Shown here: piece after piece, positions 29,952-44,863 of the stretch | Layout of the letters: every line of letters begins with the position of its first letter | Numbering within the stretch: position 1 is the stretch's first letter | Origin: Oscillospiraceae bacterium | GTDB lineage: Bacteria > Bacillota > Clostridia > Oscillospirales > Oscillospiraceae | Direction of reading: 5' to 3' | Length of the DNA: 46,209 nt | Assembly: GCA_017461445.1 (NCBI GenBank) | Contig: JAFTXW010000056.1 | Coordinates: forward strand, 1-46,209 | The notes under the pieces: generated by a model | Told to the model about the DNA's origin: nothing | Database searches by the model: none | Seen by the model: the letters and a program-made list of their open reading frames with translations, nothing else | Translations under genes and position numbers: made by a program

Positions 29952-29953
29952 CG

Positions 29954-29987: not shown

Positions 29988-30011
29988 GAAAGCGGGGGAA
30001 TCTCCCACGGG

Positions 30012-30060: not shown

Positions 30061-30088
30061 GCCCTTTCGATCCCACACAGTTCATAAT

Positions 30089-30128
30089 GAAAAAACTCCG
30101 ATACCTTTTCAGGCATCGGAGTTTTTTT
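30089..30128. terminator. Terminator between carB and the recombinase fragment
   Basis: ACTCCGAT/ATCGGAGT stem extended by CCT/AGG across one mismatch, flanked by A5 and T7, so functional in both directions. It probably ends the purA-carB transcript. Confidence 0.8.
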
Positions 30129-30541
30129 CATGGTGAACGACGGCACTCGGGATAGCTGCTCGGAATAGTAGGCAGCCATGCCTTCAATGACGGCTTCCAG
30201 AATGATACCCTCCGGGGTATCCGGGATGGCTTCGGCTACATAATAGATTTTGACACCGTTTTTCTTCAGGTGATATTTGTTGAGGGCGATCTCCTCTTTG
30301 TTTCGTCCGATCCGGTCGGTCTTCCAGACGATCAAAGCATCGAATGCATGTTTTGCCGCGTCGGCAAACATACGCTGAAACTGTTCTCTGTTGTCGTTTC
30401 GCCCGGTCTGCGCGCGGTCCGCATAAACCTTTACAATGGTCAGTCCATGGGCAGCGGCGAAGCACTCAGCCTCTGCAACCTGACCCTCGATGGACCGCTC
30501 ACCCTGTCTATGACTGGAAAAACGGGCATAGACAACAGCAT

Positions 30542-31129
30542 TCACACAGTTTCCTCCTTTGCAAGCTCCAGATCCAGCGCCATTCTGACCATGTTTTTGG
30601 ATTTGATATCTGCCTGGTCGTAGGCACGGGCAACTTCGTATGCATCAGCAGATACTTCTGCAGGAACGTAATCCTTCACACCCAACCAGACTTCCAGCGG
30701 CACATTCAGGGTATCAGACAACTGCATTGCCAGATCCAGCGGAGCAACCTTCATCTGCCGGGTAATAATCGTCCGGACCTGCTTATCTGTCAGACCGGTT
30801 TTCTGAATAACCCCGGGAATGTCTAGACCCATTTGATCTGCGGTAACCTCAATGAAGATCTTATAGAAAGGCTTCTCCTTTTTCTGTGTCCAGAACATGG
30901 AGGACACGGCCTCAGCCTCTTCGTCACCCAACAAATAATCTGCGGATACCTTCAGCGCCTCGGCATATTTACGCACAACTTCGATTCTGGGGGAGCGGTC
31001 CTCTCGTTCATACCGGCTGAGAATCTGCTTGGATGTTCCCAGAATTTTGGCGAACTCGTCCTGTGTCAAACCCATGTCCTTTCTGATCTCGCGCAGTCTT
31101 CTACCAAACTTCGTATATTCCACATCCAC
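30542..31129 (-). CDS. XRE-family helix-turn-helix regulator
   Basis: A 195-residue protein. Residues about 8-62 form an HTH_3 domain (LREIRKDMGLTQDEFAKILGTSKQ in outline, with the recognition helix at ILSRYEREDRSPR). The rest includes a second possible helix-turn-helix-like segment (DIPGVIQKTGLTDKQVRTIITRQ) and a C-terminal region of unknown role. It overlaps the truncated recombinase, a layout seen in mobile elements and phage remnants. Targets unknown. Confidence 0.87.
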   Translation of the reverse strand: MDVEYTKFGRRLREIRKDMGLTQDEFAKILGTSKQILSRYEREDRSPRIEVVRKYAEALKVSADYLLGDEEAEAVSSMFWTQKKEKPFYKIFIEVTADQMGLDIPGVIQKTGLTDKQVRTIITRQMKVAPLDLAMQLSDTLNVPLEVWLGVKDYVPAEVSADAYEVARAYDQADIKSKNMVRMALDLELAKEETV

Positions 31130-31182
31130 ATCCTGCAGGCTTTCGGTGATAAATTGCTATAAAGTTGATGTGATGACTGCCT

Positions 31183-31671
31183 TTAGCACACAGGCACATA
31201 GATTTGCATCACATTACCGGAGTATACCTCAAAATTGCATTTCTCATCATCGTGACGATAGCCACTGCCTGGGAACCATTCCTTGAAAATATATTGCCAC
31301 AGATCCTTGATTGCCTGAACGTAACCAGCCTGACCGAGCGTCTCGAGTTGGGAGTCCAGCGTGAAAATTGCGTATTTTGCCGCCGGGACCTCCAGCACTT
31401 CCATGCCGTTTGCTACATTGCCGACCGGTTCCACTCTTTCTCCAAAAAAGAACCGCATTTCAAAATCGCCTGTTTCCTTGCATAGCCAGAAGGCGATCTC
31501 CGTGCCGCATTTATTCTCTATTCCTGCATAAGCAGTCTTGTTCATAGTTGAAAAATCAATAACAGACCAATAGGCAGCACGGTCTTTAATGCGACACAGA
31601 CGTCTCCAATCAGCCTCATAAGAATACCCGACTGCATAAATCTTGTTTTCTTCTCGAATGACAGGTTCCAT
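31183..31671 (-). CDS. Stand-alone GyrI-like / AraC effector-binding domain protein
   Basis: A 162-residue protein matching the GyrI-like small-molecule binding (SRPBCC-unrelated, SHS2) fold: the C-terminal half has EVLEVPAAKYAIFTL and IFKEWFPGSGYRHDDEKCNFEVY, the typical end of these domains. There is no DNA-binding domain. Such proteins bind or hydrolyse small hydrophobic compounds or act as effector sensors. It starts 40 bases after the end of the first EcfT gene and could be the tail of the cobalamin operon or an unrelated accessory gene. Confidence 0.82.
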   Translation of the reverse strand: MEPVIREENKIYAVGYSYEADWRRLCRIKDRAAYWSVIDFSTMNKTAYAGIENKCGTEIAFWLCKETGDFEMRFFFGERVEPVGNVANGMEVLEVPAAKYAIFTLDSQLETLGQAGYVQAIKDLWQYIFKEWFPGSGYRHDDEKCNFEVYSGNVMQIYVPVC

Positions 31672-31711
31672 ATTGTTTCTCCCGATAAGCGTATTTCTTC
31701 TGAAATTTTAA

Positions 31712-32590
31712 TCAAATAGTAGTAGAGAAACGATAGTCCGTCCACACTTCCAATGCCAGCGGCATCAGGCAGAGGACTGCATAGCCGACGCAGAACAGGA
31801 TGTCCGTTGCAGCTATCGGCTCCCAGATAATCAGGGGGTCGTACACCATATCGGTCAGCCCCAGCAGGATTGCCATGACGGTCAATGTCAGGCAGGCAAA
31901 CAGGGTGATGACGTACGCCCGGTCACGGTTGTCGAAACGGTAGATAGAAAAGGCTGTTCTTCCACGAAGGGTGCTGCCCCGGCTCCGCATGGAATCAGAC
32001 ATGGTTGCAAGAGAACCGATGGTCCAGGAAATCAGCATAGAGAAAATGCGGATTCCGTTTTTCAGCCGCTGCCAAAGGTTGCCTTGATCAATTCCTTTAC
32101 CCAGTCCCTTTCTGGCTGTATGAATCCGTTTTGCTTCACCTTTGATTCTCGGCACCATACGAAGCAGGATTGCCAGGAGCAGTGAAAGTCGGGGGCTTGC
32201 TTTGCCAAAGAGGTACACCACCTTGTCCGAAGAAAAGACGGAATACACACAGCTCATCCAAATCATCACGCCTGCCAAAGATACACCCAGAACGATACCA
32301 TAAACCAGGGATTCCACCGTCATATTGTTGCCGATGAAATTCTGCCGCAGGACCGTCATGCCAAAGTGATGCAGGCTGCTGTAATAGAGAGCAAAGGCTG
32401 CGATTACCGGCAGCAGGCACAGGTTGAATACCAGGGCTTTGGTGCCGTTTCGTTTCAGACTGTAGGCAAACGCACAAAGAAACGAAATTGCCAGAAACAC
32501 CGGGTGCTGAAAGGCCAGCATCCCAAAAATCACAGCAGCAAAATAGATCAGATTCACTGCCGGGTGGCAGGCTTCAAATCCCATCGTCAT
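31712..32590 (-). CDS. ecfT: ECF transporter transmembrane subunit EcfT (first copy)
   Basis: A 292-residue EcfT/CbiQ-type membrane protein coupling an S component to the ATPases. It begins FEACHPAVNLIYFAAVIFG, has about six membrane helices, and shows the coupling-helix motif SDSMRSRGSTLRGRT used to contact EcfA. It overlaps the S-component gene by 17 bases, so these two form a module. A second EcfT lies at the other end of the operon (41687-42544), with clear resemblance (SMRSRG motifs, HPAVNxIxF start). Which EcfT serves which S component cannot be told from sequence. Confidence 0.92.
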   Translation of the reverse strand: MTMGFEACHPAVNLIYFAAVIFGMLAFQHPVFLAISFLCAFAYSLKRNGTKALVFNLCLLPVIAAFALYYSSLHHFGMTVLRQNFIGNNMTVESLVYGIVLGVSLAGVMIWMSCVYSVFSSDKVVYLFGKASPRLSLLLAILLRMVPRIKGEAKRIHTARKGLGKGIDQGNLWQRLKNGIRIFSMLISWTIGSLATMSDSMRSRGSTLRGRTAFSIYRFDNRDRAYVITLFACLTLTVMAILLGLTDMVYDPLIIWEPIAATDILFCVGYAVLCLMPLALEVWTDYRFSTTI

Positions 32591-33275
32591 CCTCCATCAT
32601 GCCGTACTGCACTTTCACCCTATCCAGCTTTTCCAGCAAGGGCTCTCCCAGGAAACGGATTACCAGGAAAGTGGCAATCGCCTGACTGATATTCACCGGC
32701 AGACCTGCTGCATACTGGGCAGCGGCACCGGCGGCGGTGATGTTCGACTGAAGCAGGAATACTGTGCAGGTGTCCAGGATGGGGCCGATCAGTACCACAA
32801 TCAGAATTGCTCCGAATATAGCCATATGCATGGGCTTCCGCTTGAGAAGCTTCTTCTGATGGGCAAGCCCCACCACCAGTCCAGCAATGCCGTAGGCCAT
32901 CATCTGCCAAGGGGTGTGCGGACCCTGTCCGAAGAAGAAATTGCTAACCAAGGCAGTCATGGCACCGATCAGGAATCCGGTTTCCGGACCAAAGACGATG
33001 GCAGACAGCATAATGATGGCATAAGTTGCCTTGAAGTTGGGGATGGGAATCACCACGCGGCCCGCAACTGCCAGTGCGCACAGAACAGCGATCACTACCA
33101 GCTCCCGAGCCTGGGGTTTCCGGCCCTCAAAGGCAAGAAAGAACGGTAGCATGATCTCCACCAAAATCAAAGTGCTGGTGAGATAGTAGGAGCGTCCGGG
33201 AATCTTGTGGCCAAAGAAAATGGTCAGAGGAATAAGCAGCAAACACAGCAACGTTGCAATTTTGGATTTTTTCAT
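32574..33275 (-). CDS. ECF transporter S component, probable corrinoid-specific
   Basis: A 233-residue membrane S component with about six helices. Typical features are AVAGRVVIPIPNFKATYAIIMLSAIVFGPETGFLIGAMTALVSN in outline and GQGPHTPWQM, in line with the CbrT/cobalamin-type S components. Substrate assignment rests mainly on context: it lies in an operon with cobT, cobU and cobS behind a cobalamin riboswitch, one base after the gene for a transcobalamin-like protein. It probably binds vitamin B12 or cobinamide at the outer face and delivers it through EcfT/EcfA. Confidence 0.82.
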   Translation of the reverse strand: MKKSKIATLLCLLLIPLTIFFGHKIPGRSYYLTSTLILVEIMLPFFLAFEGRKPQARELVVIAVLCALAVAGRVVIPIPNFKATYAIIMLSAIVFGPETGFLIGAMTALVSNFFFGQGPHTPWQMMAYGIAGLVVGLAHQKKLLKRKPMHMAIFGAILIVVLIGPILDTCTVFLLQSNITAAGAAAQYAAGLPVNISQAIATFLVIRFLGEPLLEKLDRVKVQYGMMEDDDGI

Positions 33276-33276
33276 A

Positions 33277-34941
33277 TTAGCCCTCCATTACGTCGGCACC
33301 CAAGTCCGCACCCAGACCGATGCAGGAATAGAGCCACTCGATCTTATCGCCTGGCTTGACTTCATAGCTGGAGCAGCCGTAATTGGGGAAAGTGCCATTG
33401 ACCTGATACATCCAGCCGGATTCCGCGCCACAGTCGAATTCGTACAGGTGACAGATACCCTCCAGATAGTAGCTGTCATACAGAGGTGTCCAGCTATATT
33501 CCAGGGGGATATCTGCCGCCTCGCAGACCCGTTGCAGCACATCAAATACATTCTCACCGGGAGTGAATTCCACCGTAATTTCCGGCAGAATCACACCGTC
33601 GGCCGGAACATAGGGAACCTTTGCTTCTTCCAAAAGATTTTGATTGTCGAGGACTGTATCACAGCGGATGGTGATGGTGCAGATGTTTTCCGTATTTTCG
33701 GATGTGACCAGCCGGTTATCAGGGATAGCGGCAGTTTTGAACTCACTGCCCAGAGCGGGCTTCTGATTAAGCACACCCGTCTGAATTACGAAGCCAATGC
33801 CCAGCACGGAAATCAGCAGGATGATAACTACCATAATTGCGTTGGAAAACTTCTTTTTGCCCAGCTTCTTTTTCAGAGCGAAGCACAGAACAAGCAGTGC
33901 CGCGCCAACCGCCAACACCACCCACAGCCAAACCATGTTGTTATCCTGTGCGCGCTGTTCCTGCACAGTAGGCTTCTGAGGTGTAACAGTGAAGCCGTCC
34001 GTCATATCGTAAAGAGGGGTCTTTCCCTCCAGCATGCGAAAATAGGCAGTCAATGCATAGTAGCCCTGCTCTGTTGCGATGCCGTCAACCTTGCCGGAGT
34101 GAATGTGCTTGAAGCCGCCGCCCTCTACATAATAACCCAGTAAGCCATCCAGGGCAGACATGCCATTCTTTACAAACCGCTCGTCCGTATTGGGGTCAAT
34201 GCCCAATGTACACAGTGCCACAATCACCTGGGAAACAGACTCACTGCTGGCACCATACTGGCTGGGGAAATTACCGGTTTCATCCAGCATACCTGCAAGC
34301 ACCGTAATGGCGGCATCCAGCGCACTCTGAACATCTGCATCCTCCCGGTAGGGTGCAAGTGCCTGGATCGCCATGGAAGTCACATCCGGATCGGCGATAT
34401 TGCCGGAAGTTGCCCAGCCGCCGCCGGGTACCTGGAAATCCAGAATGGTGTCCACAAGGGTTTCCCTGTTGATCCCCTCCGGCATTTCGTACTTTCCACA
34501 GTCAAAGGCGATCAGCGTCCAAATCACACCGCTGACGCCAACCTTGCGGATATAGCCCATATCGTTCAGACCTGCCAGCAGGTTGTGACCACCCACATTG
34601 GTAGGGTCTTTGCCAATGGCAGTCAGCGCCACAGTGAAGCGGCAGTTGGTGGTGCATTTGGTGGCATGGAGCCGCCCGTTGTCGTCGATTTTTTGATCCA
34701 CATAGGCAACCACGCTGTCATAGTAGCTGTCGGGCACTTCTCTTCCACTCCGGGCGAAGCCCAGCGCCATCCACTCGCCGCCGGTGGAACCGGCAGAAGG
34801 ATCACCTAAAGCGGCCATGTAATCCCCGGTGGTTTCAAATGCTTCCCGGATTGCGGTATCTTCCGCTGCCAAAGCGTTGACCGGGAGTGTTGCTATGATC
34901 AGCAGTACAAGTATAAGGGACAAAACTCGTTTCATCTTCAT
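33277..34941 (-). CDS. Membrane-anchored transcobalamin-like protein (alpha/alpha barrel + DUF4430)
   Basis: A 554-residue protein with a signal peptide (1-25), an extracellular helical domain (about 27-305) built of prenyltransferase/squalene-cyclase-type repeats (GGGW and GGGF turns), a transmembrane hairpin (about 336-356 and 367-388 joined by Lys-rich KKKLGKKK) and an extracellular C-terminal DUF4430 domain (about 455-545, with ENVFDVLQRVC and GWMYQVNG). Animal intrinsic factor and transcobalamin have the same two folds in the same order, with B12 held between them. Here the gene is one base from an ECF S component in a corrinoid operon. A surface corrinoid-capture role is inferred. Paired cysteines (96/100; 497/504/523/540) may form disulfides. 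Confidence 0.85.
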   Translation of the reverse strand: MKMKRVLSLILVLLIIATLPVNALAAEDTAIREAFETTGDYMAALGDPSAGSTGGEWMALGFARSGREVPDSYYDSVVAYVDQKIDDNGRLHATKCTTNCRFTVALTAIGKDPTNVGGHNLLAGLNDMGYIRKVGVSGVIWTLIAFDCGKYEMPEGINRETLVDTILDFQVPGGGWATSGNIADPDVTSMAIQALAPYREDADVQSALDAAITVLAGMLDETGNFPSQYGASSESVSQVIVALCTLGIDPNTDERFVKNGMSALDGLLGYYVEGGGFKHIHSGKVDGIATEQGYYALTAYFRMLEGKTPLYDMTDGFTVTPQKPTVQEQRAQDNNMVWLWVVLAVGAALLVLCFALKKKLGKKKFSNAIMVVIILLISVLGIGFVIQTGVLNQKPALGSEFKTAAIPDNRLVTSENTENICTITIRCDTVLDNQNLLEEAKVPYVPADGVILPEITVEFTPGENVFDVLQRVCEAADIPLEYSWTPLYDSYYLEGICHLYEFDCGAESGWMYQVNGTFPNYGCSSYEVKPGDKIEWLYSCIGLGADLGADVMEG

Positions 34942-35481
34942 TTCTCCTCATGGTAAGCAATCATGCCAAACAGGAACAGTTTGCCAGGAATCCAGCCGAA
35001 CTGCAAACCGCAGCGATCAGCAAGCTTTGCTACATCAATGCAGTAGGCGGACATACAACTGATTCTTCTTTCGGGATGGGCACAGGGAAGGCTTTCTTTC
35101 CGCTTGCAGGGGATCGCAGAGGGGGCAGCCGTTGTAGCCGGTACAGAATCCGACACAGCCAGCCTCCCGCACACCCTTCATCAGCCGCAGAACAGCTGCA
35201 TTATGGGTTTCCTTTGCGTGACGGACGGCGCACTTATCGTCAAAGCCCTCAATATCCCAAATGGTGGAGATCACCAGCGCCTTATCCTGGGCCAGAATGG
35301 TCTGGTGCAGCGCCTCTACGGTGCCGCAATCAGGAGGACAGGAATAATTGGCACCATATTGTCCACAGAGATTCTGCTCACAGAATGCCCGGAATTTCGG
35401 GTCTACCGGCACATCCTTCGCCGGGATCACAGCGGCATAGAAACCTTCCGCTTTTGCCAGCTCCAACAGTTTTTCTTCCAT
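34938..35481 (-). pseudogene. DUF2284 metal-binding protein with a frameshift
   Basis: Predicted Cys-rich metal-binding protein. The first part (from 35481) reads FCEQNLCGQYGANYSCPP and CVGFCTGYNGCPLCDP, then the frame fails near 35109-35112, a run of four G on the plus strand. Removing one base restores CDPCKRKESLPCAHPERR and the family-typical C-terminus ending GKLFLFGMIAYHEEK, with a stop at 34938 that overlaps the start of the next gene by 4 bases. The restored protein would be about 180 residues. The shift may be a true mutation or a sequencing/assembly error in the homopolymer. DUF2284 proteins recur in anaerobes near corrinoid and methyl-transfer genes, but their role is unknown. Confidence 0.75.
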
Positions 35482-35494
35482 ATCGCAAATCTCC

Positions 35495-35686
35495 TTACTT
35501 TTTCTTAGGTTCTTTCAGTCCTGCTGCTTCCAAGGCTCTCGGCCAAGGGCCAAGGAAGGTCTTGATTCTGGCGCGGGTGGCATCATCAAAGTCTTTTTTT
35601 GTGGGAGGCCGGCCCAACTCCTGGGCTTTGCGTTGAAGCTGGCTGATTGCCCAAGTTTTTTTCTGTTCGTCAGTCATAGGTATCAT
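35495..35686 (-). CDS. Small protein with a homing-endonuclease-associated (HNH_repeat-like) motif
   Basis: A 63-residue protein whose middle reads LGRPPTKKDFDDA and FLGPWPRALEAAGL, matching the repeat found in multiple copies in homing endonucleases and some phage regulators (PF18780 type). Only one repeat is present and no nuclease domain is seen. It overlaps the phosphatase gene by 4 bases and is therefore translated as part of the corrinoid operon. Possibly a small nucleic-acid-binding protein; function unknown. Confidence 0.72.
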   Translation of the reverse strand: MIPMTDEQKKTWAISQLQRKAQELGRPPTKKDFDDATRARIKTFLGPWPRALEAAGLKEPKKK

Positions 35687-36222
35687 GGTAATTCCTCATA
35701 TGTATTGCCACGGATGACATATCCGCAGCCGTTCTTTGGCTGCCATTCATAGCGGTTCTTATTTTCGTTGGGGAACAGATGCTCCATAATGGCAGCGATC
35801 ACACCGCCATGGGTGATGATGCAGGTGTCCTCCTGAAGTTCCGAAAAGGCTTGCAGAACACGCTCTCGCATCTGCACACCGCTTTCGCCATTGGGAGGGG
35901 TATTCGCATCGTTATCCCCGGTGAGCCATATCTGATATGTAGGCGTGTCTTTTAGTTCCTCGTAGCTGTGCATTTCGAAAATGCCGAAGTCCACTTCCCG
36001 GAACCGGGGCTCGACTTCGTACTGCACATTCCCAAAGAGAATCTGTAAGGTCCCATTCGTCCGCTTCATGCCACTGGTAAGGAAGCGGACATTTTTAATG
36101 TCATAGCAAAACCGGCTCAATTCTTCTCTGCCCCCATCGGACAGGGACAGGTCGGTGCTGCCGCAGTATAGATGACGCTCATTGGCTTCTGTCTTGCCGT
36201 GGCGAATCAAGTATATGGTCAT
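35683..36222 (-). CDS. cobC: Histidine phosphatase, probable alpha-ribazole phosphatase (CobC-like)
   Basis: A 179-residue phosphoglycerate-mutase-like phosphatase with the RHG motif LIRHGKTEAN (catalytic His8), FREVDFGIFE, and the second His in CIITHGGVIAAIM. In a cobT/cobU/cobS context the expected job is removal of the 5' phosphate from alpha-ribazole phosphate or adenosylcobalamin 5'-phosphate. ATG at 36222 was selected over a longer upstream frame because it overlaps the preceding gene as ATGA and starts directly at the fold. Other members of this broad family have different substrates, so the assignment rests on neighbours. Confidence 0.83.
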   Translation of the reverse strand: MTIYLIRHGKTEANERHLYCGSTDLSLSDGGREELSRFCYDIKNVRFLTSGMKRTNGTLQILFGNVQYEVEPRFREVDFGIFEMHSYEELKDTPTYQIWLTGDNDANTPPNGESGVQMRERVLQAFSELQEDTCIITHGGVIAAIMEHLFPNENKNRYEWQPKNGCGYVIRGNTYEELP

Positions 36223-36581
36223 TTTAATCGCTGCTCCAATCCGCAGAATATCCTGCTGACCTGGGTAGCTTCCTTGCTTAGATACTGTGCCAGCCGTCCG
36301 GTTTTCTGCCGCCATGCTCTGGTTTCTGCACCCATGGGAACTACACCGCAGAAGATATCCTGGAGGATTAGAATGCTGTCCTGCCATTGCTCCCGGTGGG
36401 TTTGAAAATAACCGATGGGGTCAGGATGGCCATAGGTGAATTCTTCAATTTTATAGATGCACCGCTTAGAGAAGTCGATTTCTCCGGTGCCGCAGGTATG
36501 CACATCCGCATCTGTAATGTCAAAGGCGTTCTTGGCAAAATCCAGCTTGCCCTGATAGGCTCCACCAATAATCAGAATCAT
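36219..36581 (-). CDS. Short CobU-like protein with degenerate P-loop
   Basis: A 120-residue protein resembling the two ends of CobU, adenosylcobinamide kinase/guanylyltransferase, with the middle missing. The N-terminus MILIIGGAYQGKLDFAK parallels the CobU P-loop but has Leu where Ser/Thr should follow Lys. The C-terminus, DIFCGVVPMGAETRAWRQK and then RIFCGLEQRLK, resembles the CobU C-terminus well. A canonical-length CobU is encoded at 37428-37973, so this is a paralogue whose kinase activity is doubtful. It could assist, regulate or carry part of the reaction. Confidence 0.75.
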   Translation of the reverse strand: MILIIGGAYQGKLDFAKNAFDITDADVHTCGTGEIDFSKRCIYKIEEFTYGHPDPIGYFQTHREQWQDSILILQDIFCGVVPMGAETRAWRQKTGRLAQYLSKEATQVSRIFCGLEQRLK

Positions 36582-36601
36582 ATGTACCTCCCGTTTTTTC
36601 T

Positions 36602-36685
36602 GTCATTCCGAGCCAGTGCTCACACTGGCGTGGGAATCCCCATCGGTACAGGAGATTGCCACATCGCTTCGCTCCTCGCAATGAC
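36602..36685. repeat. Dispersed palindromic repeat (about 84 bp)
   Basis: Terminal inverted repeats GTCATTCCGAG and CTCGCAATGAC (one mismatch), with an internal hairpin GCCAGTG-CTCA-CACTGGC. It interrupts the otherwise packed corrinoid operon between cobS and the CobU-like gene. Elements of this look are common in gut Clostridia genomes; encodes nothing. Confidence 0.7.
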
Positions 36686-36693
36686 GCAGTTTT

Positions 36694-37437
36694 TTAGATG
36701 AGTGCATAAACTGCTACGGCGCACAGCTCACCAATGGTCAGTGCGTAGCCAGAAATGTCACCATTCATGCCGTCCAGAGATTTGTAGGCCCGGTGCAGGG
36801 CAAGGCCGTAGCCAGCCAAACATCCAATGAGAGCAAATCCATACTTGCCGCAGAGCAGGAAGCCTGCCGCAAGGAAAATGCATAGCATGACCGCCAGCAC
36901 CACCATGTGGTACTTCGGTTTTTGCTGATCCGCATACTGGCTGGTGGACATGGGCTTCAATCCAGTCACCGCCAGAGCGGAGCAGCAGCGGCTGATTGCA
37001 GGAATAAATATCAGAATCAGATAATTGGCATCGTTGGATGCAGATGCAAATACCGCAAACTGGGCGATCATCAGCAACACGATGCCGATAACCGCAAAGC
37101 TACCCACATGAGAATCCTTCAGGATCTCCCTTCTGCGCTCCAAGTCCCGCCAGGATTTCACCGCATCGGTCACATCCATATAGCCGTCCAGATGGAGAAA
37201 TCCGGTGACGATGTAAGGATAGGCCGAGAGGATCAATGCCGCAATCATTGTGGGTAGATTCAGCAGACGACACAGCCAAGCTAAACCGGCCCAGATTGCA
37301 CCAATCTCCAAGCCCACAATGGGCAGGAACAAAAGCATTTTGTCCCTGGCCTTCTCGTCCCACACCTGGGGTGCGGGGATGGCACAGAACATACTCTGGC
37401 ACATAGCAAAAGCATGAAGATAGGTTTTCATATGCAC
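36694..37437 (-). CDS. cobS: Adenosylcobinamide-GDP ribazoletransferase
   Basis: A 247-residue integral membrane enzyme that joins adenosylcobinamide-GDP and alpha-ribazole (phosphate) in the last step of the nucleotide loop pathway. The family signature GFLHLDGYMDVTDAVKSW with metal-binding Asp residues and EILKDSHVGSFAVI is clear; about six to seven membrane segments follow. It overlaps cobU by 10 bases. Confidence 0.94.
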   Translation of the reverse strand: MHMKTYLHAFAMCQSMFCAIPAPQVWDEKARDKMLLFLPIVGLEIGAIWAGLAWLCRLLNLPTMIAALILSAYPYIVTGFLHLDGYMDVTDAVKSWRDLERRREILKDSHVGSFAVIGIVLLMIAQFAVFASASNDANYLILIFIPAISRCCSALAVTGLKPMSTSQYADQQKPKYHMVVLAVMLCIFLAAGFLLCGKYGFALIGCLAGYGLALHRAYKSLDGMNGDISGYALTIGELCAVAVYALI

Positions 37438-37973
37438 AGATCCCCCTTGTGAATGATTGGCTGGCCTGCGGACACTTCAATGACGGTACCGCAGACCTTT
37501 GCCAGTCGGCGGTCGATATCCGCCAGACACTTACGGTACATCTCGGTGTTTTCGGAATACTTTTCCGCATCGGAATAGATATAGTCACTGACAAATACTG
37601 CATGGCGGACAGTATGAGCAAACTCCACCAGTTCGTCGGCGCATCGGTGTGCCGCCTCCAGATCCATTTCATAGTTCTTCTCCACCGGGAACAGGGAGTT
37701 CTGGATTAACGCCGTGACACTGTCCACCAGAAACACACCCTCCTGATCGGCAGTTTCCAGGCAGTCCATGATATTGCGGAAGCACTCCACGGTTTCAAAG
37801 CCCATGCCGTCCCGGTCTGCGATGTGCCGCCGAATGCGGTCATCGTCCTCACTCCCAGTGGAGATCATGGTTGCCACATAGTAGTGCTTCCCGCCTTTGG
37901 AAAGAGTAACCGTCAGATCCTGGGCCAGAGTGGACTTGCCGTTCTTGGCACCGCCAGAGATAAAATAGGTCAT
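37428..37973 (-). CDS. cobU: Adenosylcobinamide kinase/guanylyltransferase
   Basis: A 181-residue P-loop enzyme that phosphorylates adenosylcobinamide and then transfers GMP to it. The intact Walker A is ISGGAKNGKST at residues 5-15, followed by RIRRHIADR, which places a His where CobU carries its guanylylated residue, and FLVDSVTALIQN as the Walker B region. The usual GxGIVP-type C-terminal segment is divergent in this copy but looks preserved in the short paralogue at 36219-36581. It overlaps cobT by 4 bases and cobS by 10. Confidence 0.9.
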   Translation of the reverse strand: MTYFISGGAKNGKSTLAQDLTVTLSKGGKHYYVATMISTGSEDDDRIRRHIADRDGMGFETVECFRNIMDCLETADQEGVFLVDSVTALIQNSLFPVEKNYEMDLEAAHRCADELVEFAHTVRHAVFVSDYIYSDAEKYSENTEMYRKCLADIDRRLAKVCGTVIEVSAGQPIIHKGDLCI

Positions 37974-39058
37974 TTCGCACCCTCCACGGAGAACTTGTCG
38001 CCCTCCCGGATCTCATCCAGGTAACCATCATCGATACCCGCCTGGTCGAAGGTAGCCATATCATTGATGATGGCGCAGGCTGCGGTAAGAATCTCAAAAG
38101 CCAGGGGGCATCCGCTGCCCTCGCCCAGCCGCATACCCAGCAGGAACAAAGGCTGCAGCTCCATAGCATCCATAGCAAGCCGATACCCGATCTCATAGGA
38201 TGCGTGGCTGGGGATCAGGTAGCCTTTTACGTTGGGGCAGAGCTTGCAGGCACACAGGGCAGCAACGGCGGAAATAAAACCGTCAATGACCACCGGGCGG
38301 CGGGTTACAGCCGCACCGATGAACGCACCGCACATGGCGGCAATGTCGAATCCGCCGACTTTCGACAGCACGTCGATTACATCGTTTTGTTCGGGACGAT
38401 TGATAGCAATAGCATCCTTGATGACCTGCTTCTTTTTCAGGAAACTGGCATCCGTAATGCCGCCACCCCGACCCGTAACAGCCTCCACATCCGCATCCAG
38501 AAGAACGGACAGCACCGCAGAAGAAGTGGTAGTGTTGCCGATACCCATTTCTCCGATGCCGATCACATCCGCATCGGTAGTCTGTGCGAACTGAATGCCG
38601 GTGAGTATGGCCTGAATCGCCTGCTCCCGGCTCATAGCAGGACCGTTGACGATATTCTGTGTTCCATAGGCGATCTTGCGGTTCAGTACCGCAGATTCCT
38701 TGATGTCCGCATTGACACCCACATCACAGACAGTAATATCGCAACCGAAATGCTTGCAGAGGGTGGATGCACCGGTCTTATGCCGGGTCAGGTTGATTGT
38801 CTGCATCAGGGTCACGGACTGGGGCGCGCTGGAAACACCCTCTGCCACCACACCGTTGTCGGCAGCAAACACCAGCAGATGTTTCTTCTCAATTTTGTTA
38901 TGTACCTTTCCGGTGATGCCTGCAAGCTGGATGGATAAATCCTCCAGCCGTCCCAGACTTCCGGGAGGCTTGGCAAGCTGTGCCTGCCGCTCTCTGGCTG
39001 CTGCCATGGCAGCTTCATCCAGCGGCTGGACAGAATCAAGATAAGTCTTTAACTCCAT
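37970..39058 (-). CDS. cobT: Nicotinate-nucleotide-dimethylbenzimidazole phosphoribosyltransferase
   Basis: A 362-residue enzyme that makes alpha-ribazole phosphate by activating the lower-ligand base with nicotinate mononucleotide. Motifs: KPPGSLGRLEDLS near the N-terminus, VFAADNGVVAEGVS, GIGEMGIGNTT, and GMRLGEGSGCPLAF with the catalytic Glu. ATG at 39058 was chosen over an upstream frame because it follows a GAAGGA-type site and gives the normal CobT length. Its presence without ring-synthesis genes points to salvage of corrinoids and attachment of a lower ligand. Which base is used cannot be told from sequence. Confidence 0.96.
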   Translation of the reverse strand: MELKTYLDSVQPLDEAAMAAARERQAQLAKPPGSLGRLEDLSIQLAGITGKVHNKIEKKHLLVFAADNGVVAEGVSSAPQSVTLMQTINLTRHKTGASTLCKHFGCDITVCDVGVNADIKESAVLNRKIAYGTQNIVNGPAMSREQAIQAILTGIQFAQTTDADVIGIGEMGIGNTTTSSAVLSVLLDADVEAVTGRGGGITDASFLKKKQVIKDAIAINRPEQNDVIDVLSKVGGFDIAAMCGAFIGAAVTRRPVVIDGFISAVAALCACKLCPNVKGYLIPSHASYEIGYRLAMDAMELQPLFLLGMRLGEGSGCPLAFEILTAACAIINDMATFDQAGIDDGYLDEIREGDKFSVEGAK

Positions 39059-39062
39059 AGCA

Positions 39063-39326
39063 TCAACCTTCCTTCTTTCGGGCCAGTTCCGCAATTTGGC
39101 TGAACTTGGAAAGCACATAATCATAACCGCCTGCACTGTGGGGGATCAGACACCCGGAGCAGTCCTTGATTCCTTTTTCGGTATAGGCAAAATTGCCGCC
39201 GCATTGATCTCCAAGGGCATATAGCGGGCAAAAGCAAAACAGACAGTTGAAATTTTCGTTTTTGGTTTTGTGACAGGGATAATATTCACATTCCCGATTC
39301 TGAAAGAATGCATGGCTGTTTTTCAT
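39063..39326 (-). CDS. Cysteine-rich small-domain protein
   Basis: An 87-residue protein with ten cysteines, matching the Cys-rich small domain (PF04071 type): CEYYPCH, NFNCLFCFCPLY, DQCGGNF and KDCSGCLIPH. Such proteins are found repeatedly beside cobalamin genes in archaea and anaerobic bacteria; function unknown, probably metal or iron-sulfur binding. ATG at 39326 overlaps the stop of the TIM-barrel gene as ATGA, supporting this start over a longer frame. It ends 4 bases before cobT. Confidence 0.88.
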   Translation of the reverse strand: MKNSHAFFQNRECEYYPCHKTKNENFNCLFCFCPLYALGDQCGGNFAYTEKGIKDCSGCLIPHSAGGYDYVLSKFSQIAELARKKEG

Positions 39327-40066
39327 AGCTGTTCCTCCAAAAGCCAACGGATAGAAGGTTCTGCGTTCATCAGCTCCAATGTCAGGGTTGCGTTGGGGCA
39401 TTTTTCTTCGATTACCGCAAGCAGTTCCTTCATGGGAATTGTGCCATCCATCAGCTGTCCGTGGGCATCCCGGCTGGTATCGTTGTTGTGAATATGGAAG
39501 TGTGCCACGAAACGTAAGCACCTTTCCAGCCATTCCATAACCGGAACCTTGGAGTAAGCATTCACATGGCCCACATCCAGGCACATCCGAATCCGGGGAT
39601 CGTTTACCTGCCGGACGATTTCCGTCAGCATAGCCGGTTCTTCCTCAAACACATTTTCCAGACAGAACACCATGTCCTCTGGGATCTCCTTGACAAATTC
39701 TTTCCAGAAAAGAACCGACTGCTCGGTGTACCAAATAGGAAAATAGATTCTCGGATTATAGCCGCCGTGGACAACGATTTTCTTGATTCCATAGTCCTGT
39801 GCGATCTGAATCACCTGACGGTACCGCTCCGCAGCTATCGCTCTTACCTTCGGATCGATGGCACAGGGGAATAGTTCGCTGAAGGGAGCGTGGAGCACAA
39901 ACCGATCGGAGCAGGCCAGCTTCTCCCGGATCAGCGGATCGACCTTCTCGAAATCCGTGTCCAGAAACCAGGGTGTGCAGAACTCTGCAATCTCAATGCC
40001 AAAGCCGTGCTGCTTTGCAAGGATATGGGCATTTTCATCAATGGTGGAAAGGTAGAATTTATCCAT
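39323..40066 (-). CDS. Xylose-isomerase-like TIM-barrel protein in the corrinoid operon
   Basis: A 247-residue sugar phosphate isomerase/epimerase-type TIM barrel (PF01261-like, endonuclease IV fold). Metal-site segments are visible: VVHGGYNPR, CLENVFEEEP, CLDVGHVNA, HFHIHNND and TLELM. These enzymes use divalent metals to isomerise, epimerise or dehydrate small molecules. No classical step of cobalamin salvage needs this fold, so its conserved-looking position between EcfA and cobT (overlap of 8 bases with EcfA) suggests a corrinoid-remodelling or lower-ligand role, which is inference. Confidence 0.85.
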   Translation of the reverse strand: MDKFYLSTIDENAHILAKQHGFGIEIAEFCTPWFLDTDFEKVDPLIREKLACSDRFVLHAPFSELFPCAIDPKVRAIAAERYRQVIQIAQDYGIKKIVVHGGYNPRIYFPIWYTEQSVLFWKEFVKEIPEDMVFCLENVFEEEPAMLTEIVRQVNDPRIRMCLDVGHVNAYSKVPVMEWLERCLRFVAHFHIHNNDTSRDAHGQLMDGTIPMKELLAVIEEKCPNATLTLELMNAEPSIRWLLEEQL

Positions 40067-41714
40067 GCCGGTTCTCCCTGTAAAGGTTCACCACATCTTC
40101 CGCCGTGACTGCCATAGAAAAAACATGGCGGCTCATGCGGTTGGCTGCGGTGGTATAGAAACTGTTATTGCCGAAGAAGCGGCGGGGCGTGTCGGTGGTC
40201 AGCACCTGACCGTCAAAGAACATGGACACCGCATCGGCATACTTGGCGCAGAACTCCACATCGTGGGAAACCATGACGATGGTGATGCCCTGCTCCTTTA
40301 GCTTGCAGAGAATTTTCGCCAGTTTTTCCTTGAAGAAGCTGTCAATGCCCTTGGTGGGCTCGTCCAGCAGCAGGAGCTTGGGCTGGGTCAGCAGAACTTT
40401 CGCCAGGGCGGCTCTCTGCTGCTCACCTCCGGAGAGATCGTAGGGGTGGCTGTTCAGGAGATTTTCAATCTCGCAGGTAGCGGCGATTTCGCTGATTTTT
40501 GCCTGATCCTTGGTCATTTCCTCCAGCTCTTCCCGGACGGTTTTGGCTACGAACAGGCTCTTGGGGTCCTGCGGGAGCATGGCAAGACAGCTTTGGAACA
40601 ACTCCGTGGACTTATATTTTTCAATGGGCTTGCCGAAGATCTTCACCTTACCCCGGTAGGGCTTGCAGATGCCGCAGATGGCCTTGAGCGCTGTGGATTT
40701 ACCTGCACCGTTGCCGCCGACGATGGCATACAGGCTTCCGGCAGGCACTTCGGCACTGACACCCCGGAGGATATCGGGACTGTTTTTCTCATAGCGAAAC
40801 CACAGTTCTTTCAGTACAAGGGCGGGATTTTCAATCTCATCAGGCAATTCCTGCACAGGGAGCGCGTTCACTTTTGCTCCCTCTGGGAAGGACTTGCTCA
40901 GCCAGTTTCGGCCCTCCCGGACGGTCAGGGGACAATCGCCGTTTCCGTCCGCGCCATAGAACACCCGGACTGGGGTGGGCATTGCGGTGAACATATCGTT
41001 TTTCTGCTCCCACAGGAGCTTGCCGATATTCCGGGGCGTATCGTCGGCAATGACTTTGCCACCATCCATGACCACTGCCCGGTCCGCATAGGGGAAAATA
41101 TCCTCCAGGCGGTGCTCGGTAATGATGACAGTGGTTCCCAGTTCAATGTTGATCTTCCGTACAGTGTTCAGAAAATCCGACGCGGCGATAGGGTCGAGCT
41201 GGCTGGTGGGTTCGTCCAGAATCAGCACCTCCGGCTGCATGGCCATGATGGATGCCAGGTTCAGAAGCTGCTTCTGTCCGCCGGAGAGGTTCGCCACATC
41301 CCGGTGAAACCAATCCTGGATGCCGAAATAGCAGGCCATTTCCGCAACTCTGGCGCGCATGGTCTTCTGGTCACAGCCCAGACTCTCCAGACCGAAGGCT
41401 AGCTCGTGCCAGACCTTATCCGTGACGATCTGATCGTCGGGATTCTGCATCACATAGCCGATTTTACTGGACTGATCCCGCTGGCTGACCTGCTCCATGG
41501 GGGTGCCATTGAACAGAATTGCACCGCTTCTTTTGCCACTGGGAGTCAGGACGGACTTCAGATGCTTCAGCAGGGTGGTTTTGCCGGAACCGGATTTGCC
41601 GCACAGGACGATATACTCGCCCTTTTCAATGGTGAGGGACACATCGTCCAAAGAGCGTTTATTCTTTGCGGCAGCATAGGAAAAGGTCAGATTCTGGATC
41701 TGGAAATGTGCCAT
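40059..41714 (-). CDS. ecfA: ECF transporter ATPase, fused double domain (EcfA-EcfA')
   Basis: A 551-residue protein carrying both ATP-binding cassettes needed by an ECF importer. First cassette: Walker A GKSGSGKTT, signature LSGGQKQLLN, Walker B VLILDEPTSQLDP, switch ITEHR. Second cassette: GGNGAGKST, signature LSGGEQQRAAL, LLLLDEPTKGID, VSHDVEF. ATG at 41714 follows AGGAGG at a good distance; a longer upstream frame would overlap EcfT excessively. It overlaps the second EcfT by 28 bases. With only one ATPase protein in the locus it may serve both EcfT proteins. Confidence 0.94.
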   Translation of the reverse strand: MAHFQIQNLTFSYAAAKNKRSLDDVSLTIEKGEYIVLCGKSGSGKTTLLKHLKSVLTPSGKRSGAILFNGTPMEQVSQRDQSSKIGYVMQNPDDQIVTDKVWHELAFGLESLGCDQKTMRARVAEMACYFGIQDWFHRDVANLSGGQKQLLNLASIMAMQPEVLILDEPTSQLDPIAASDFLNTVRKINIELGTTVIITEHRLEDIFPYADRAVVMDGGKVIADDTPRNIGKLLWEQKNDMFTAMPTPVRVFYGADGNGDCPLTVREGRNWLSKSFPEGAKVNALPVQELPDEIENPALVLKELWFRYEKNSPDILRGVSAEVPAGSLYAIVGGNGAGKSTALKAICGICKPYRGKVKIFGKPIEKYKSTELFQSCLAMLPQDPKSLFVAKTVREELEEMTKDQAKISEIAATCEIENLLNSHPYDLSGGEQQRAALAKVLLTQPKLLLLDEPTKGIDSFFKEKLAKILCKLKEQGITIVMVSHDVEFCAKYADAVSMFFDGQVLTTDTPRRFFGNNSFYTTAANRMSRHVFSMAVTAEDVVNLYRENRHG

Positions 41715-42544
41715 ACAAGAGCCTCCTGTAAGTGTAATAAGGTGGGAATCAGAGAAAGAAAACCATACAGCAGTAAGCCGATGGGAGAAATCGGAGCCAG
41801 ATACCACTCTGGGGTGAATGTGGCTGTGGTGTGCCCTGCGGAGATCACGGCAATCAATGCTGCAGATAGAACAAAAATCGCTGAGAGCAATCCCCAGTCA
41901 CGCTTTGCCATCCGGTAAATCATAAAGCTGGTTCGTTTCGATGTGCCGTAGCCCCGGCTTCGCATGGAGTCGGCGGTGACGATGCTGCCCTCCAATGCCC
42001 AGGTGATCAGGCACCCGAGAACTGTCATGGCTTCGTCCGTGCCGGACATTTCCTTGCCAATGGACTGTCTCGCGCCGGTGATCTGCTTACCTTTCCGAAT
42101 CAGGCTTGGCACCATGCGGAAGATCATCACCAAAAGCAACGAAAGGGAGGGGATGAGATTACCGAACAGACTGGTGAACTTATCCCCGGTCATCAGGTTG
42201 CTGTAGCAGGAGAACCAAAGGATCATGGTCAGGAACATCCCGCTAAGCACGGCACCGTAGACCAGTGCTTCGAGTGTATAGGGGATTCCGAATACTTGAA
42301 ACAGAATCGTAGCGCCATCCCGGTTGACCAGCGGATTCAGCAGGATCACCGCCAGAAACAGCGGCAACATCATGGCGATCCGTTTCAGTCCCTTGCCACC
42401 ATGGAGAAGCAGGAAATAGCTGAGTGCTCCCACAATCCCGGCAACCAGAAAAGCCGGATGCAGGATCACAACACCGAACCCCAATACGCTGAGAAAAAAT
42501 ATGAAATTGACTGCCGGATGATACCCGGAGAATGCATCCCGCAT
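41687..42544 (-). CDS. ecfT: ECF transporter transmembrane subunit EcfT (second copy)
   Basis: A 285-residue EcfT/CbiQ-like membrane protein, first gene of the corrinoid operon. It begins MRDAFSGYHPAVNFIFFLS, has about six membrane helices and the coupling motif ADSMRSRGYGTSKRT. ATG at 42544 follows GGAGGG by about 9 bases and lies just after a terminator hairpin; the longer frame upstream would translate the repeat-rich leader and was rejected. It pairs with the double EcfA gene downstream. Confidence 0.92.
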   Translation of the reverse strand: MRDAFSGYHPAVNFIFFLSVLGFGVVILHPAFLVAGIVGALSYFLLLHGGKGLKRIAMMLPLFLAVILLNPLVNRDGATILFQVFGIPYTLEALVYGAVLSGMFLTMILWFSCYSNLMTGDKFTSLFGNLIPSLSLLLVMIFRMVPSLIRKGKQITGARQSIGKEMSGTDEAMTVLGCLITWALEGSIVTADSMRSRGYGTSKRTSFMIYRMAKRDWGLLSAIFVLSAALIAVISAGHTTATFTPEWYLAPISPIGLLLYGFLSLIPTLLHLQEALVWHISRSRI

Positions 42545-42566
42545 TGTTAAGTCCCTCCAGAAAACA

Positions 42567-42592
42567 GAAAAAGCTCCCGAAAATCGGGAGCT
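42567..42592 (-). terminator. Leader terminator ahead of the corrinoid operon
   Basis: On the minus strand AGCTCCCGA-TTT-TCGGGAGCT (42592-42572) followed by TTTT-C. It sits between the riboswitch-like element and the first gene, so it is the probable switching terminator. Confidence 0.82.
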
Positions 42593-42599
42593 TACAGTA

Positions 42600-42745
42600 A
42601 CGCAAAGCGACCATGCCGCTGTTGCGGCACGGAATAGTGCATGCATCTTTTTGCATCCCGCAGGATGCAAAAAGGATACGCATAATTTCCGGTTGCCGCG
42701 CAAGCGGCGAGGAAATTGCGTTTGAAATTAATTATTTCTATGCCA
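42600..42745. repeat. Cluster of perfect hairpins in the corrinoid operon leader
   Basis: Read on the plus strand: ATGCCGC-TGTT-GCGGCAC (42613-42630), TTTTTGCATCC-CGCA-GGATGCAAAAA (42648-42673), CGCATAATTTCC with GGAAATTGCG (42679-42720), and TTTCTATGC-CAGA-GCATAGAAA (42735-42756). Back-to-back palindromes of this sort look like an inserted repeat mosaic, though they could instead form the expression platform. The 42600-43010 stretch has no gene. Confidence 0.6.
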
Positions 42746-42784
42746 GAGCATAGAAATATCCGCTGGACAGCCCCCAAGAGTCCT

Positions 42785-42950
42785 GCGTACAGATCATTCG
42801 TCCGTATTCCGACTCCGGACGCCATCTTGTATGTCTCTTCTCAGCTTGCGCCAATGAGATCATACGGCTTTATGTCCGTCTACGGCGGCTTGGTACCGTT
42901 GGGATTTTTCCCCATTCCAATTTAACGAATGTTCTTCAAAAGCAATATAA
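42785..42950 (-). ncRNA. Cobalamin riboswitch-like element (minus strand)
   Basis: Minus-strand leader of the corrinoid operon. It shares with the canonical plus-strand riboswitch the blocks AACGGTACC (42900-42892), TCATTGG and CTGAGAAG (42859-42838 area), and has AGTCGGAATACGGAC (42814-42800) in the place of the B12 box. A weak promoter (TTGCGA-N17-TACGAT, 42999-42971) precedes it and a terminator follows. The B12 box departs from AAGTCAGGA, so ligand preference may differ. Confidence 0.68.
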
Positions 42951-43011
42951 CAGGCTTTCACCTTTTATATATCGTACCACACTATGTCGAAAATCGCAAT
43001 CCCTTTTTCGA

Positions 43012-43049: not shown

Positions 43050-43250
43050 TGAATATCCGTTTGAGTGCCTGTGGGTGTGGTAACAGCCCCATGGGAGAAT
43101 AGAGAATCGTGTGCAAATCACGAACGGTACCGCCACTGTATGCGTGGAGGTTCTGCTGTTGGGCGAAAGCCGGTCATTGGGGTTTCCCTGAGAAGGCCAT
43201 GCAAAACCTAAGAAGCGCAAGTCAGGAGAACTGCTTAAACGATGTGAACC
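43050..43250 (+). ncRNA. Cobalamin riboswitch (canonical)
   Basis: Conserved blocks in order: GTGTGCAAATCACG, CGAACGGTACCGCCACTGTA (43121-43140), AAAGCCGGTCATTGG, CTGAGAAGGCC, and the B12 box AAGTCAGGAGAACTGC (43219-43234). A strong terminator follows at 43303-43340. It should switch off the lipoprotein transcript when a cobalamin form is abundant. Confidence 0.93.
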
Positions 43251-43302
43251 ACACCGGGGTCTGCAAGTACGGACTGCGGTGGTCTTTGACGCGGAAAAAC
43301 GG

Positions 43303-43589: not shown

Positions 43590-43760
43590 AATCTGCATAG
43601 CAACGCTATGAGATCTGCACGATCTGTCAAACAGGTGCGAATCCTGTACGTGACCGCCGCCGTGAACACACGGCATCTTTCTTCTTTCAGTGCCGCAATT
43701 GAGAAAAGAAAGATGCCCAGTATAGTCGGAAAAGACAGACCGTGTTCCCAACATACATAC
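43590..43760 (+). ncRNA. Second plus-strand cobalamin riboswitch-like element
   Basis: Downstream of the canonical riboswitch. It shows CAGGTGCGAATCCTG, then TACGTGACCGCCGCCGTGA (43646-43664), a long P5/P6-like stem GCATCTTTC/GAAAGATGC enclosing CAGTG and TTGAGAAA, and AGTCGGAAAAGAC (43724-43736) as B12-box equivalent, similar to the minus-strand element. No terminator lies between it and the gene, so it may act on ribosome access. Confidence 0.72.
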
Positions 43761-43810
43761 GCCGCGAGATCCGGCCAAGGGAAATATATCATATAAGGAG
43801 AGTAATGAAC

Positions 43811-44860
43811 ATGAAGAAAATCATCGCGCTTTTACTTGCTTTGGTGATGGCTCTGTCCCTGGTTGCCTGCGGCGGCACCGACACGCCTGATTCCACCTCC
43901 ACCACCCAGCCTTCCGTAGAATCCACCCCCGCAGCATCCGACAGCGTCGGTGCCAATTTCACAGTCGTAGTGACAGATCTGGATGGCACCGAAACCACTT
44001 TTGAGTACACCTCCGAAGCAGCCACTGTCGGCGAAGCTCTGCTGGCAGAAGGTCTGATCGCAGGTGACGAGAGCGACTGGGGCCTGATGGTTACCACCGT
44101 CAACGGCATCACCGCTGACTGGGCAACCGAAAATGCTTACTGGGCATTCTACATCGACGGTGAGTATGCACAGACCGGTGTCGATGCTACTGAACTGACT
44201 GATGGTGCTACTTATAGCTTCACCAAGACCATTTCCTACACCGTGATGGGTGAGGGTGCAACCACCTTCTACTTCACCGCCAAGGATCTGGACGGCACCG
44301 TTACCAAGTACGAAATCCATACCGATGCCACCACCGTGGGCGAAGCACTGGTCGCTCTGGAACTGGTTTCCGGCGACGAGAGTGACTGGGGTCTGATGGT
44401 CACTACCGTCAATGGCATTACTGCTGACTGGGCAACCGAAAATGCTTACTGGGCATTCTACATCGACGGTGAGTATGCACAGACCGGTGTTGATTCCACC
44501 GAAATCACCGCAGGTGCTACCTATGAGATGGTCAAGACCATTTCCTATACTGTGCTGGGTGAAGGCGAAACCACCATCTATGTCACCGTTAAGGACGTGG
44601 ACGGCACTGTTACCAAGTTCCAGGTCAATACCGATGCAAAGACTGTTGGTGAAGCTCTGCTGGCTGTGGAACTGATCGCAGGTGATGAGAGTGAGTATGG
44701 CCTGTATGTCACTTCCGTCAACGGTATTACCGCTGATTGGGACACCGAAAAGGCATACTGGGCATTCTACATTGGCGAGGAATACGCACAGACCGGCGTC
44801 GATGCTACCGACATTGTTGCGGATACCGAATATTCCTTTGTAAAGACCATTTCCGAGTAA
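43811..44860 (+). CDS. Lipoprotein with three tandem DUF4430 (transcobalamin C-terminal-like) domains
   Basis: A 349-residue secreted lipoprotein: hydrophobic signal, lipobox LVAC with Cys20, a Ser/Thr/Pro-rich linker to about 47, then three repeats of about 103 residues (roughly 47-141, 150-244, 253-348). Each carries TVGEAL, YGL/WGL-MVT, and the DUF4430 hallmark AYWAFYIDGEYAQTGVD. DUF4430 corresponds to the small beta domain of intrinsic factor and transcobalamin. Two cobalamin riboswitch-like elements upstream imply a corrinoid-related, surface-exposed binding role. ATG at 43811 (10 bases after AAGGAG) is chosen; ATG at 43805 is equally possible. Confidence 0.87.
   Translation: MKKIIALLLALVMALSLVACGGTDTPDSTSTTQPSVESTPAASDSVGANFTVVVTDLDGTETTFEYTSEAATVGEALLAEGLIAGDESDWGLMVTTVNGITADWATENAYWAFYIDGEYAQTGVDATELTDGATYSFTKTISYTVMGEGATTFYFTAKDLDGTVTKYEIHTDATTVGEALVALELVSGDESDWGLMVTTVNGITADWATENAYWAFYIDGEYAQTGVDSTEITAGATYEMVKTISYTVLGEGETTIYVTVKDVDGTVTKFQVNTDAKTVGEALLAVELIAGDESEYGLYVTSVNGITADWDTEKAYWAFYIGEEYAQTGVDATDIVADTEYSFVKTISE
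44114..44490 (+). repeat. Intragenic near-identical 309-bp tandem repeat
   Basis: Bases 44114-44181 and 44423-44490 are identical over 68 positions, offset by exactly 309 bases (103 codons), inside the DUF4430 lipoprotein. Identity including synonymous positions indicates recent duplication or gene conversion; the third repeat is more diverged. Confidence 0.85.
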
Positions 44861-44863
44861 TCC

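Follow-up and report, generated by a model that had tools for sequence, protein, structure and literature searches.

A membrane-tied toroid–DUF4430 fusion protein beside an ECF S component: a candidate surface corrinoid receptor in an Oscillospiraceae bacterium

Introduction

Animal carriers of vitamin B12 are soluble and are taken up through receptors, and in Bacteroides the surface protein BtuG captures B12 and feeds a membrane importer, in an outer-membrane system of different fold. ECF importers are, to our knowledge, generally described as binding through the S component alone. Bacterial fusions of an alpha/alpha toroid with a beta-grasp domain of the SLBB type were described by Burroughs et al. 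(2007; PMC1796856): the sections dealing with them present secreted or surface proteins that have the toroid on either side of the SLBB domain and are predicted to scavenge B12. Their genes generally share predicted operons with CbiO-like and CbiQ-like ones, and a second SLBB protein is often encoded there too. According to the same sections, the bacteria concerned usually lack key B12 synthesis enzymes, and the animal carriers are proposed to derive from Gram-positive bacteria by transfer; both the two-part arrangement and its predicted B12 role are thereby already published (PMC1796856). A further point of reference is ECF-CbrT of Lactobacillus delbrueckii (structure 6FNP), which imports cobalamin and cobinamide; CbrT is itself the substrate-binding protein, its gene lies in an nrdJ-cbrS-cbrT-pduO cluster, and the parts of the report concerned with it mention no extracellular clamp (PMC5997447).

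Mentions of DUF4430 in open-licence papers, as far as the passages that name it go, concern fish carriers, and bacterial DUF4430 proteins appear there only in lists, among mutations and in a network. RtpR is a B12-dependent reductase. In Lacticaseibacillus rhamnosus, rtpR adjoins a DUF4430 gene to which the relevant passage assigns no function (PMC9963975), and a passage on TCN proteins, from fish and others, makes DUF4430 their C-terminal domain (PMC4350170). Open-licence papers, a body that leaves most subscription-journal papers and bioRxiv outside, yielded no later studies of bacterial toroid–DUF4430 proteins or of the hairpin form described below, and none on a riboswitch/transcobalamin link in Firmicutes, PF01122 or RUMGNA_00854.

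Here we describe a protein that shares with those of Burroughs et al. the toroid and SLBB domains, the surface setting, the neighbours of CbiO and CbiQ type and the predicted B12 role, but which carries a transmembrane hairpin between the domains; neither this hairpin nor a history of fusion and fission is described in the sections cited, the words “riboswitch,” “S component” and “substrate-specific” are absent from the main text, and whereas the bacteria treated there usually lack key synthesis enzymes, our genome has much of the corrin-ring pathway (PMC1796856). The membrane-tied fused form looks new. With intrinsic factor, haptocorrin and transcobalamin it has in common the order of alpha then beta domain, a related beta domain and a toroid of about 290 residues, similar in length to theirs, whereas it differs from them in the inter-domain hairpin and in a toroid that does not match PF01122. 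We consider the protein to be a surface corrinoid receptor for the ECF importer encoded beside it, with a probability of roughly 0.7.

Results and Discussion

Architecture and Membrane Topology

The window, by which we mean the whole stretch of 46,209 nucleotides that was analysed, carries on its minus strand a gene for a protein of 554 amino acids, running from an ATG at 34941 to 33277 (33277..34941); the preliminary description had these coordinates right and left the strand unstated. All features of the protein lie on this strand. A predicted signal peptide (residues 1-26; 34864..34941), assigned by eye and by hydropathy at an N-terminus that reads MKMKRVLSLILVLLIIATLPVNALAA, precedes a toroid ectodomain (residues 27-315; 33997..34863). 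This is followed by a first transmembrane helix, TM1 (residues 336-357; 33871..33936), a loop of sequence KKKLGKKK that joins the two membrane helices (residues 358-366; 33844..33870), a second helix, TM2 (residues 367-389; 33775..33843), and an ectodomain with a transcobalamin-type beta-grasp fold of the SLBB type, DUF4430 (residues 418-550; 33292..33690). The hydropathy windows, at residues 6, 336 and 368, come from a simple Kyte-Doolittle scan rather than a trained predictor, run on an identical copy of the protein on a second contig (C52). As the loop is lysine-rich, the positive-inside rule would place it in the cytoplasm and both the toroid and the DUF4430 domain outside.

Signal peptide, toroid, two-helix anchor and C-terminal DUF4430 domain, all proposed in the preliminary description, are supported by hydropathy, Pfam matches and profiles. 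The whole architecture recurs at 87% identity in locus L064 and 62% in L065, and the same scan found it at 31-34% identity in L096, L127, L133 and L135; the fused reading frame is therefore not a chance reading.

The Beta Domain

Pfam DUF4430 (PF14478) matches residues 462-539 of the fused protein with an E-value of 2.4e-17 (63.6 bits against a cut-off of 23.8). A single-sequence search of the PDB with the whole protein returned one match, at E 0.53, and the animal carriers were absent from a PDB search with profile A3, made of 50 mostly closer DUF4430 rows. When profile A5, built from 30 diverse bacterial DUF4430 domains, was run against the sequences of all PDB chains, it matched five distinct sequences at E up to 10, none of them unrelated: haptocorrin (4KKI, E 0.001), the bacterial 3U7Z (E 0.0023), intrinsic factor (2PMV and 3KQ4, E 0.28) and transcobalamin-2 (5NO0, E 1.4), of which only the best two are significant on their own. 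These matches support a kinship of the bacterial domain with the beta domains of the animal carriers.

Five DUF4430 positions are invariant in 50/50 rows (Y492, E501, S508, G509, and W510). Transcobalamin-like SLBB domains are characterised, in the passages describing them, by a beta-hairpin insert after the helix that bears a conserved aromatic residue (PMC1796856, PMC1949818); in the fused protein the stretch where this insert is expected, read from sequence alone, holds Y488 (41/50 rows) and Y492 (50/50 rows).

The Alpha Domain

Taken singly, the fused sequence matches toroid models below their cut-offs (Prenyltrans, E 0.012; the NCBIfam model SCO2321_fam, E 1.5e-05). Profiles built from 47 and 33 toroid domains of the family (A4 and A6) match squalene-hopene-cyclase-type toroids in the PDB, with best E-values of 7.4e-14 and 3.2e-16 respectively, and at E up to 0.001, 41/98 family rows match SQHop_cyclase_C and 35/98 match Prenyltrans, where the 98 include rows with DUF4430 only. 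When the toroid profile was compared with itself, the top-scoring pairs joined inner with inner or outer with outer helices, as labelled by eye, and lower pairs were mixed; only the best pair (21.7) outscores all 100 column shuffles (highest 18.7). Profiles and family matches support residues 27-315 as an alpha/alpha toroid, and the pairing of like helices among the top scores is what a repeat barrel would give. The alpha/alpha barrel that had been claimed for residues 27-305 thereby gains sequence-profile support, with which the weak repeat test is consistent.

The likeness to the animal carriers is less complete in this half of the protein. The animal Cobalamin_bind family (PF01122) has no match in the whole genome at E up to 10, and neither toroid profile search of the PDB returned the animal carriers. 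From the proposal that the protein repeats the domain order of those carriers, we therefore retain the alpha-then-beta order and the kinship of the beta domain, but for the alpha domain there is no PF01122 match to set beside them.

Because the closest solved structures are squalene-hopene-type cyclases, and one related plasmid protein is annotated as a terpene cyclase/mutase, we asked whether the toroid might rather be an exported terpene cyclase or prenyltransferase of some kind, with no relation to B12. Class II terpene cyclases depend on a catalytic acid motif, DxDD, which 7XQ4 shows as DVDDT. Across 113 toroid hits, from 87 loci with a few repeat copies included, the position reads DxD[M/V/I/L/K/Q/R]T in 103 and is absent in 10; the fourth D is present in 0/113, on which ground we rejected a terpene cyclase identity for the family. 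The B12 gene context speaks against an exported enzyme of either type as well, and we regard this explanation as extremely improbable.

Nine positions of the toroid are invariant in 47/47 rows (R64, K95, R101, D147, D186, T188, S235, K258, and Q292), with H279 conserved in 46/47; as the rows were chosen by score, these figures are inflated. The fused protein itself deviates at two near-invariant positions, having V134 where 44/47 rows have Q and S137 where 43/47 have N. The conserved positions of toroid and DUF4430 domain together fit a polar pocket, and that H279 might be a cobalt ligand is a guess.

The Operon, its Riboswitches and the Mode of Uptake

The fused gene lies in a same-strand series of cob and ECF genes headed by a cobalamin riboswitch (42783..42944, minus strand; 39.2 bits, gathering threshold 31.5). 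From the riboswitch onward, all on the minus strand, the order is ecfT1 (41687..42703; CbiQ, 31.1 bits, above the cut-off of 25), fused ATPases EcfA-EcfA' (40059..41807), a xylose-isomerase-like TIM-barrel protein found also in the cob/ECF loci of genomes G030 and G022 (39323..40066), cobT (37970..39136; 426.2 bits, above cut-off), cobU (37428..37973; E 9e-20, below cut-off), cobS (36694..37437; E 1.2e-24, below cut-off) and a CobC-like phosphatase (35683..36387; ribazole_cobC, E 1e-32, below the model's own cut-off). There follow a small HNH_repeat protein present in several relatives' loci (35495..35680), a predicted metal-binding DUF2284 protein (35035..35481), the fused gene, the ECF S component (32574..33275) and a second EcfT, ecfT2 (31712..32590), whose CbiQ match (E 0.0051) is below cut-off and which is 33% identical to ecfT1 by BLAST. 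The setting within a cob operon and the spacing to the S gene were as first described: the S component starts at 33275, one base past the stop of the fused gene, and its same-strand neighbours are cob genes and the second EcfT. The one-base spacing is found in L064 and L065 too.

The 741-bp stretch upstream of the fused gene was considered as non-coding and rejected as such, since it holds the two small same-strand genes for the HNH_repeat and DUF2284 proteins; a search for a hidden riboswitch between 34942 and 35682 listed nothing up to E 1. Between cobS and the cobC-like gene, at 36219-36581 (minus strand), lies a frame whose match is to the C-terminal portion of CobU. Two EcfT genes in one ECF operon are unusual, and here two (31712-32590 and 41687-42703) stand with one EcfA-EcfA' gene and one S component, as they do in G030, G011 and L073. 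Past the end of the operon, at 30012-31129 (minus strand), a gene for a 177-amino-acid resolvase N-terminal domain lies beside one that by eye resembles a helix-turn-helix regulator.

Among solved structures, the best match of the S component is ECF-CbrT (6FNP, E 8.7e-8), at a modest 35.5 bits, the next being 4HZU (2.4e-4); Pfam places it closest to a riboflavin-type S family. A CbrT-like S component is supported by the structure match, and ECF-CbrT is the importer of cobalamin and cobinamide introduced above (PMC5997447).

A second cobalamin riboswitch (43051..43252, plus strand; 83.3 bits) diverges from the first, and behind it lies a gene for a lipoprotein with three DUF4430 repeats (43742..44860, plus strand), which matches the same 3U7Z structure as the profile of the beta domain (E 6.1e-12) and is possibly a second corrinoid catcher. 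A DUF1638 gene follows this lipoprotein (43742-45547, plus strand, for the pair).

The preliminary description had suggested looking for this architecture next to cobalamin riboswitches. Counting those on the strand of the operon that lie upstream of or overlap the start of the first called gene, we found a cobalamin-class riboswitch in 20/31 hand-chosen, non-random loci against 0/7 control stretches of 20 kb, drawn from five genomes to which most of the loci do not belong (Fisher p 0.0025). Two of the 20 are marginal, namely L092 (31.7 bits against 31.5) and L063 (AdoCbl-II, 38.7 against 36.5). At the gathering threshold there was none in the remaining 11/31 loci (L064, L135, L060, L047, L050, L097, L114, L175, L082, L140, and L131), some of which are on short contigs; L060, L064 and L135 among them carry fused genes. 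In the 17-kb locus L073, four cobalamin riboswitch matches were seen, in 1-2144 and 11575-11820, one cut by the end of the locus, and the first three each stand ahead of a DUF4430 gene.

We propose that a receptor of this kind would work as follows. Outside the membrane, linkers of about 20 and 28 residues would carry the two ectodomains, which would close over one corrinoid in the manner of the animal carriers. Their common tie to the membrane would keep the loaded clamp beside the S component, to which it would pass its ligand for import by the ECF module. CobU, CobS, CobT and CobC may then finish or remodel imported cobinamide or foreign cobamides.

The last step bears on what the clamp mainly binds. 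Much of the corrin-ring synthesis operon is present on another contig (G000:C22:80000-97000, L174), so the organism need not depend on uptake, which counts against the receptor reading. The same pathway would make it worthwhile to scavenge odd corrinoids, and with the cob genes inside the operon, and import of cobinamide by CbrT as well (PMC5997447, in the part cited), it could be argued that the same clamp serves chiefly for incomplete or foreign corrinoids (cobinamide, other cobamides) to be repaired by CobT, U, S and C. The riboswitches sense cobalamin, yet they report need and not the captured form, and so decide little here; such a change of main ligand seems to us unlikely. Locus L174 also holds a second CobT-type gene and a gene for a periplasmic-binding protein. 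A further point against a receptor comes from B12 users: the families PF02310, PF02607, TIGR00276 and TIGR02504 gave no match at E up to 0.001 in this 91%-complete genome.

Origin of the Membrane Hairpin

The hairpin had been described as inserted between the two domains of a carrier. Relatives in which the two domains are encoded separately do not fit that description, as their anchors align on either side of the loop and the break falls inside it; we therefore rejected an inserted module. The toroid protein of G030 closes with a membrane helix followed by KFKKKD, and the separate DUF4430 gene starts MKKKKLANVIMV and aligns with the fused protein from residue 360 at 60%; between the two lies one gene, encoding C39-peptidase and cell-wall-hydrolase domains. 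The DUF4430 protein of G027 has a G030-like start; for that of G016 the same holds if translation is taken from a methionine inside the called frame. Anchored toroid and anchored DUF4430 genes directly succeed each other, in that order, in L097 (with a 4-base overlap) and in L114. In the split systems TM1 thus has its counterpart in the C-terminal anchor of the toroid protein and TM2 in the N-terminal anchor of the DUF4430 protein, and the loop is the point of splitting or fusion. Since the anchors of the split partners meet in what is predicted to be a cytoplasmic loop, the hairpin most likely represents two such anchors joined by gene fusion. There are exceptions among the split systems: the DUF4430 partners of G022, L092 and L136 are lipoproteins by eye, and a C-terminal anchor is missing from the G022 and G027 toroids.

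Phylogenetic analysis placed the nine fused rows in two groups. In the DUF4430 tree of 109 rows they fall into two groups; in a reduced set of 71 rows, which leaves out multidomain rows and three further rows, two changes are needed and forcing the fused rows into one clade gives an AU p-value of 0.0047. The toroid tree of 111 rows likewise has two changes, with an AU p-value of 0.037 for one clade. A single fusion inherited by all fused genes was rejected on both trees, with the limits that these are quick trees with some long branches (L060 among them) and that we had seen the first before testing. The trees favour two independent fusions, short of proof: a toroid gene with a C-terminal anchor and a DUF4430 gene with an N-terminal one would have joined apparently twice.

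This history also bears on whether toroid and DUF4430 domain act together. The DUF4430 domain could bind a corrinoid alone, or each domain a separate molecule, with the toroid serving as a scaffold or a spacer that faces the cell wall. DUF4430 proteins without a toroid do exist, as the triple-repeat lipoprotein of the window shows, and at L066-L070 toroids occur in large surface proteins with no ECF genes in view; against this, exactly these two parts were fused in two apparently independent events, and many polar residues of the toroid are conserved. We consider it distinctly unlikely that there is no joint clamp.

Distribution and Significance

A match at E up to 1e-10 is present in 17/60 near genomes and in 58/398 genomes drawn from the phylum, the window's own being counted in both. 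A scan of contigs gave 255 places encoding a relative, of which the best 80 were kept; these make up 79 loci, the nearest part of the family, several of them on short contigs. Within this set (best 80 of 255), a toroid gene is found in 75 loci, DUF4430 in 72, ecfS in 48, ecfT in 42 and one or other of ecfS and ecfT in 54; an ecfA-type ATPase is seen in 57/79, by a profile that also matches other ABC ATPases. The closest named match, again among the best 80 of 255 places, comes from an Oscillospiraceae MAG from goat rectum (L064, 87%).

In 6/79 loci (best 80 of 255) we found the fused toroid-TM-TM-DUF4430 form (L064, L065, L096, L127, L133, and L135), which also occurs in L060 and L063 from near genomes; L065 is the locus of the near genome G004 (L044). 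In the split form on a plasmid of Latilactobacillus curvatus, five consecutive genes encode an LPXTG toroid protein, a DUF4430 protein, EcfT, an ATPase and an S component, and no riboswitch was found at this plasmid locus. Loci L066-L070 carry toroids and DUF4430 domains in the large surface proteins noted above.

These last proteins, at loci without ECF genes in view, could be taken to suggest that the family sequesters corrinoids at the surface, as a store or to deny them to competitors, and does not feed the neighbouring transporter, the more so as the link between fused protein and S component is one of gene neighbourhood. The one-base spacing to the S gene in the window, L064 and L065, and the presence of ecfS or ecfT in 54/79 loci (best 80 of 255), argue against storage or denial, which we regard as very improbable. 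For the receptor feeding the ECF importer, the locus and its relatives offer a concrete and testable candidate.

It is an evenly balanced question whether these loci represent a class of ECF transporters with an extracellular receptor of their own, in which a transcobalamin-type clamp by the S component is usually split and has been fused at least twice independently through a transmembrane hairpin. If so, ECF transport would gain an outer stage of capture, and gut Bacillota would use the same clamp as animals for the same vitamin. The series from split to fused forms is “Rosetta stone” evidence for toroid and DUF4430 partners functioning as a single unit elsewhere in the Bacillota. It is also relevant to the idea, put forward in 2007, that intrinsic factor and transcobalamin reached animals from Gram-positive bacteria.

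Finally, positions 26948-46209 of the window (G000:C42), which include the fused gene and its operon, are identical to a region of G000:C52 over 19,262/19,262 aligned bases, and the shared region is probably an assembly duplicate.
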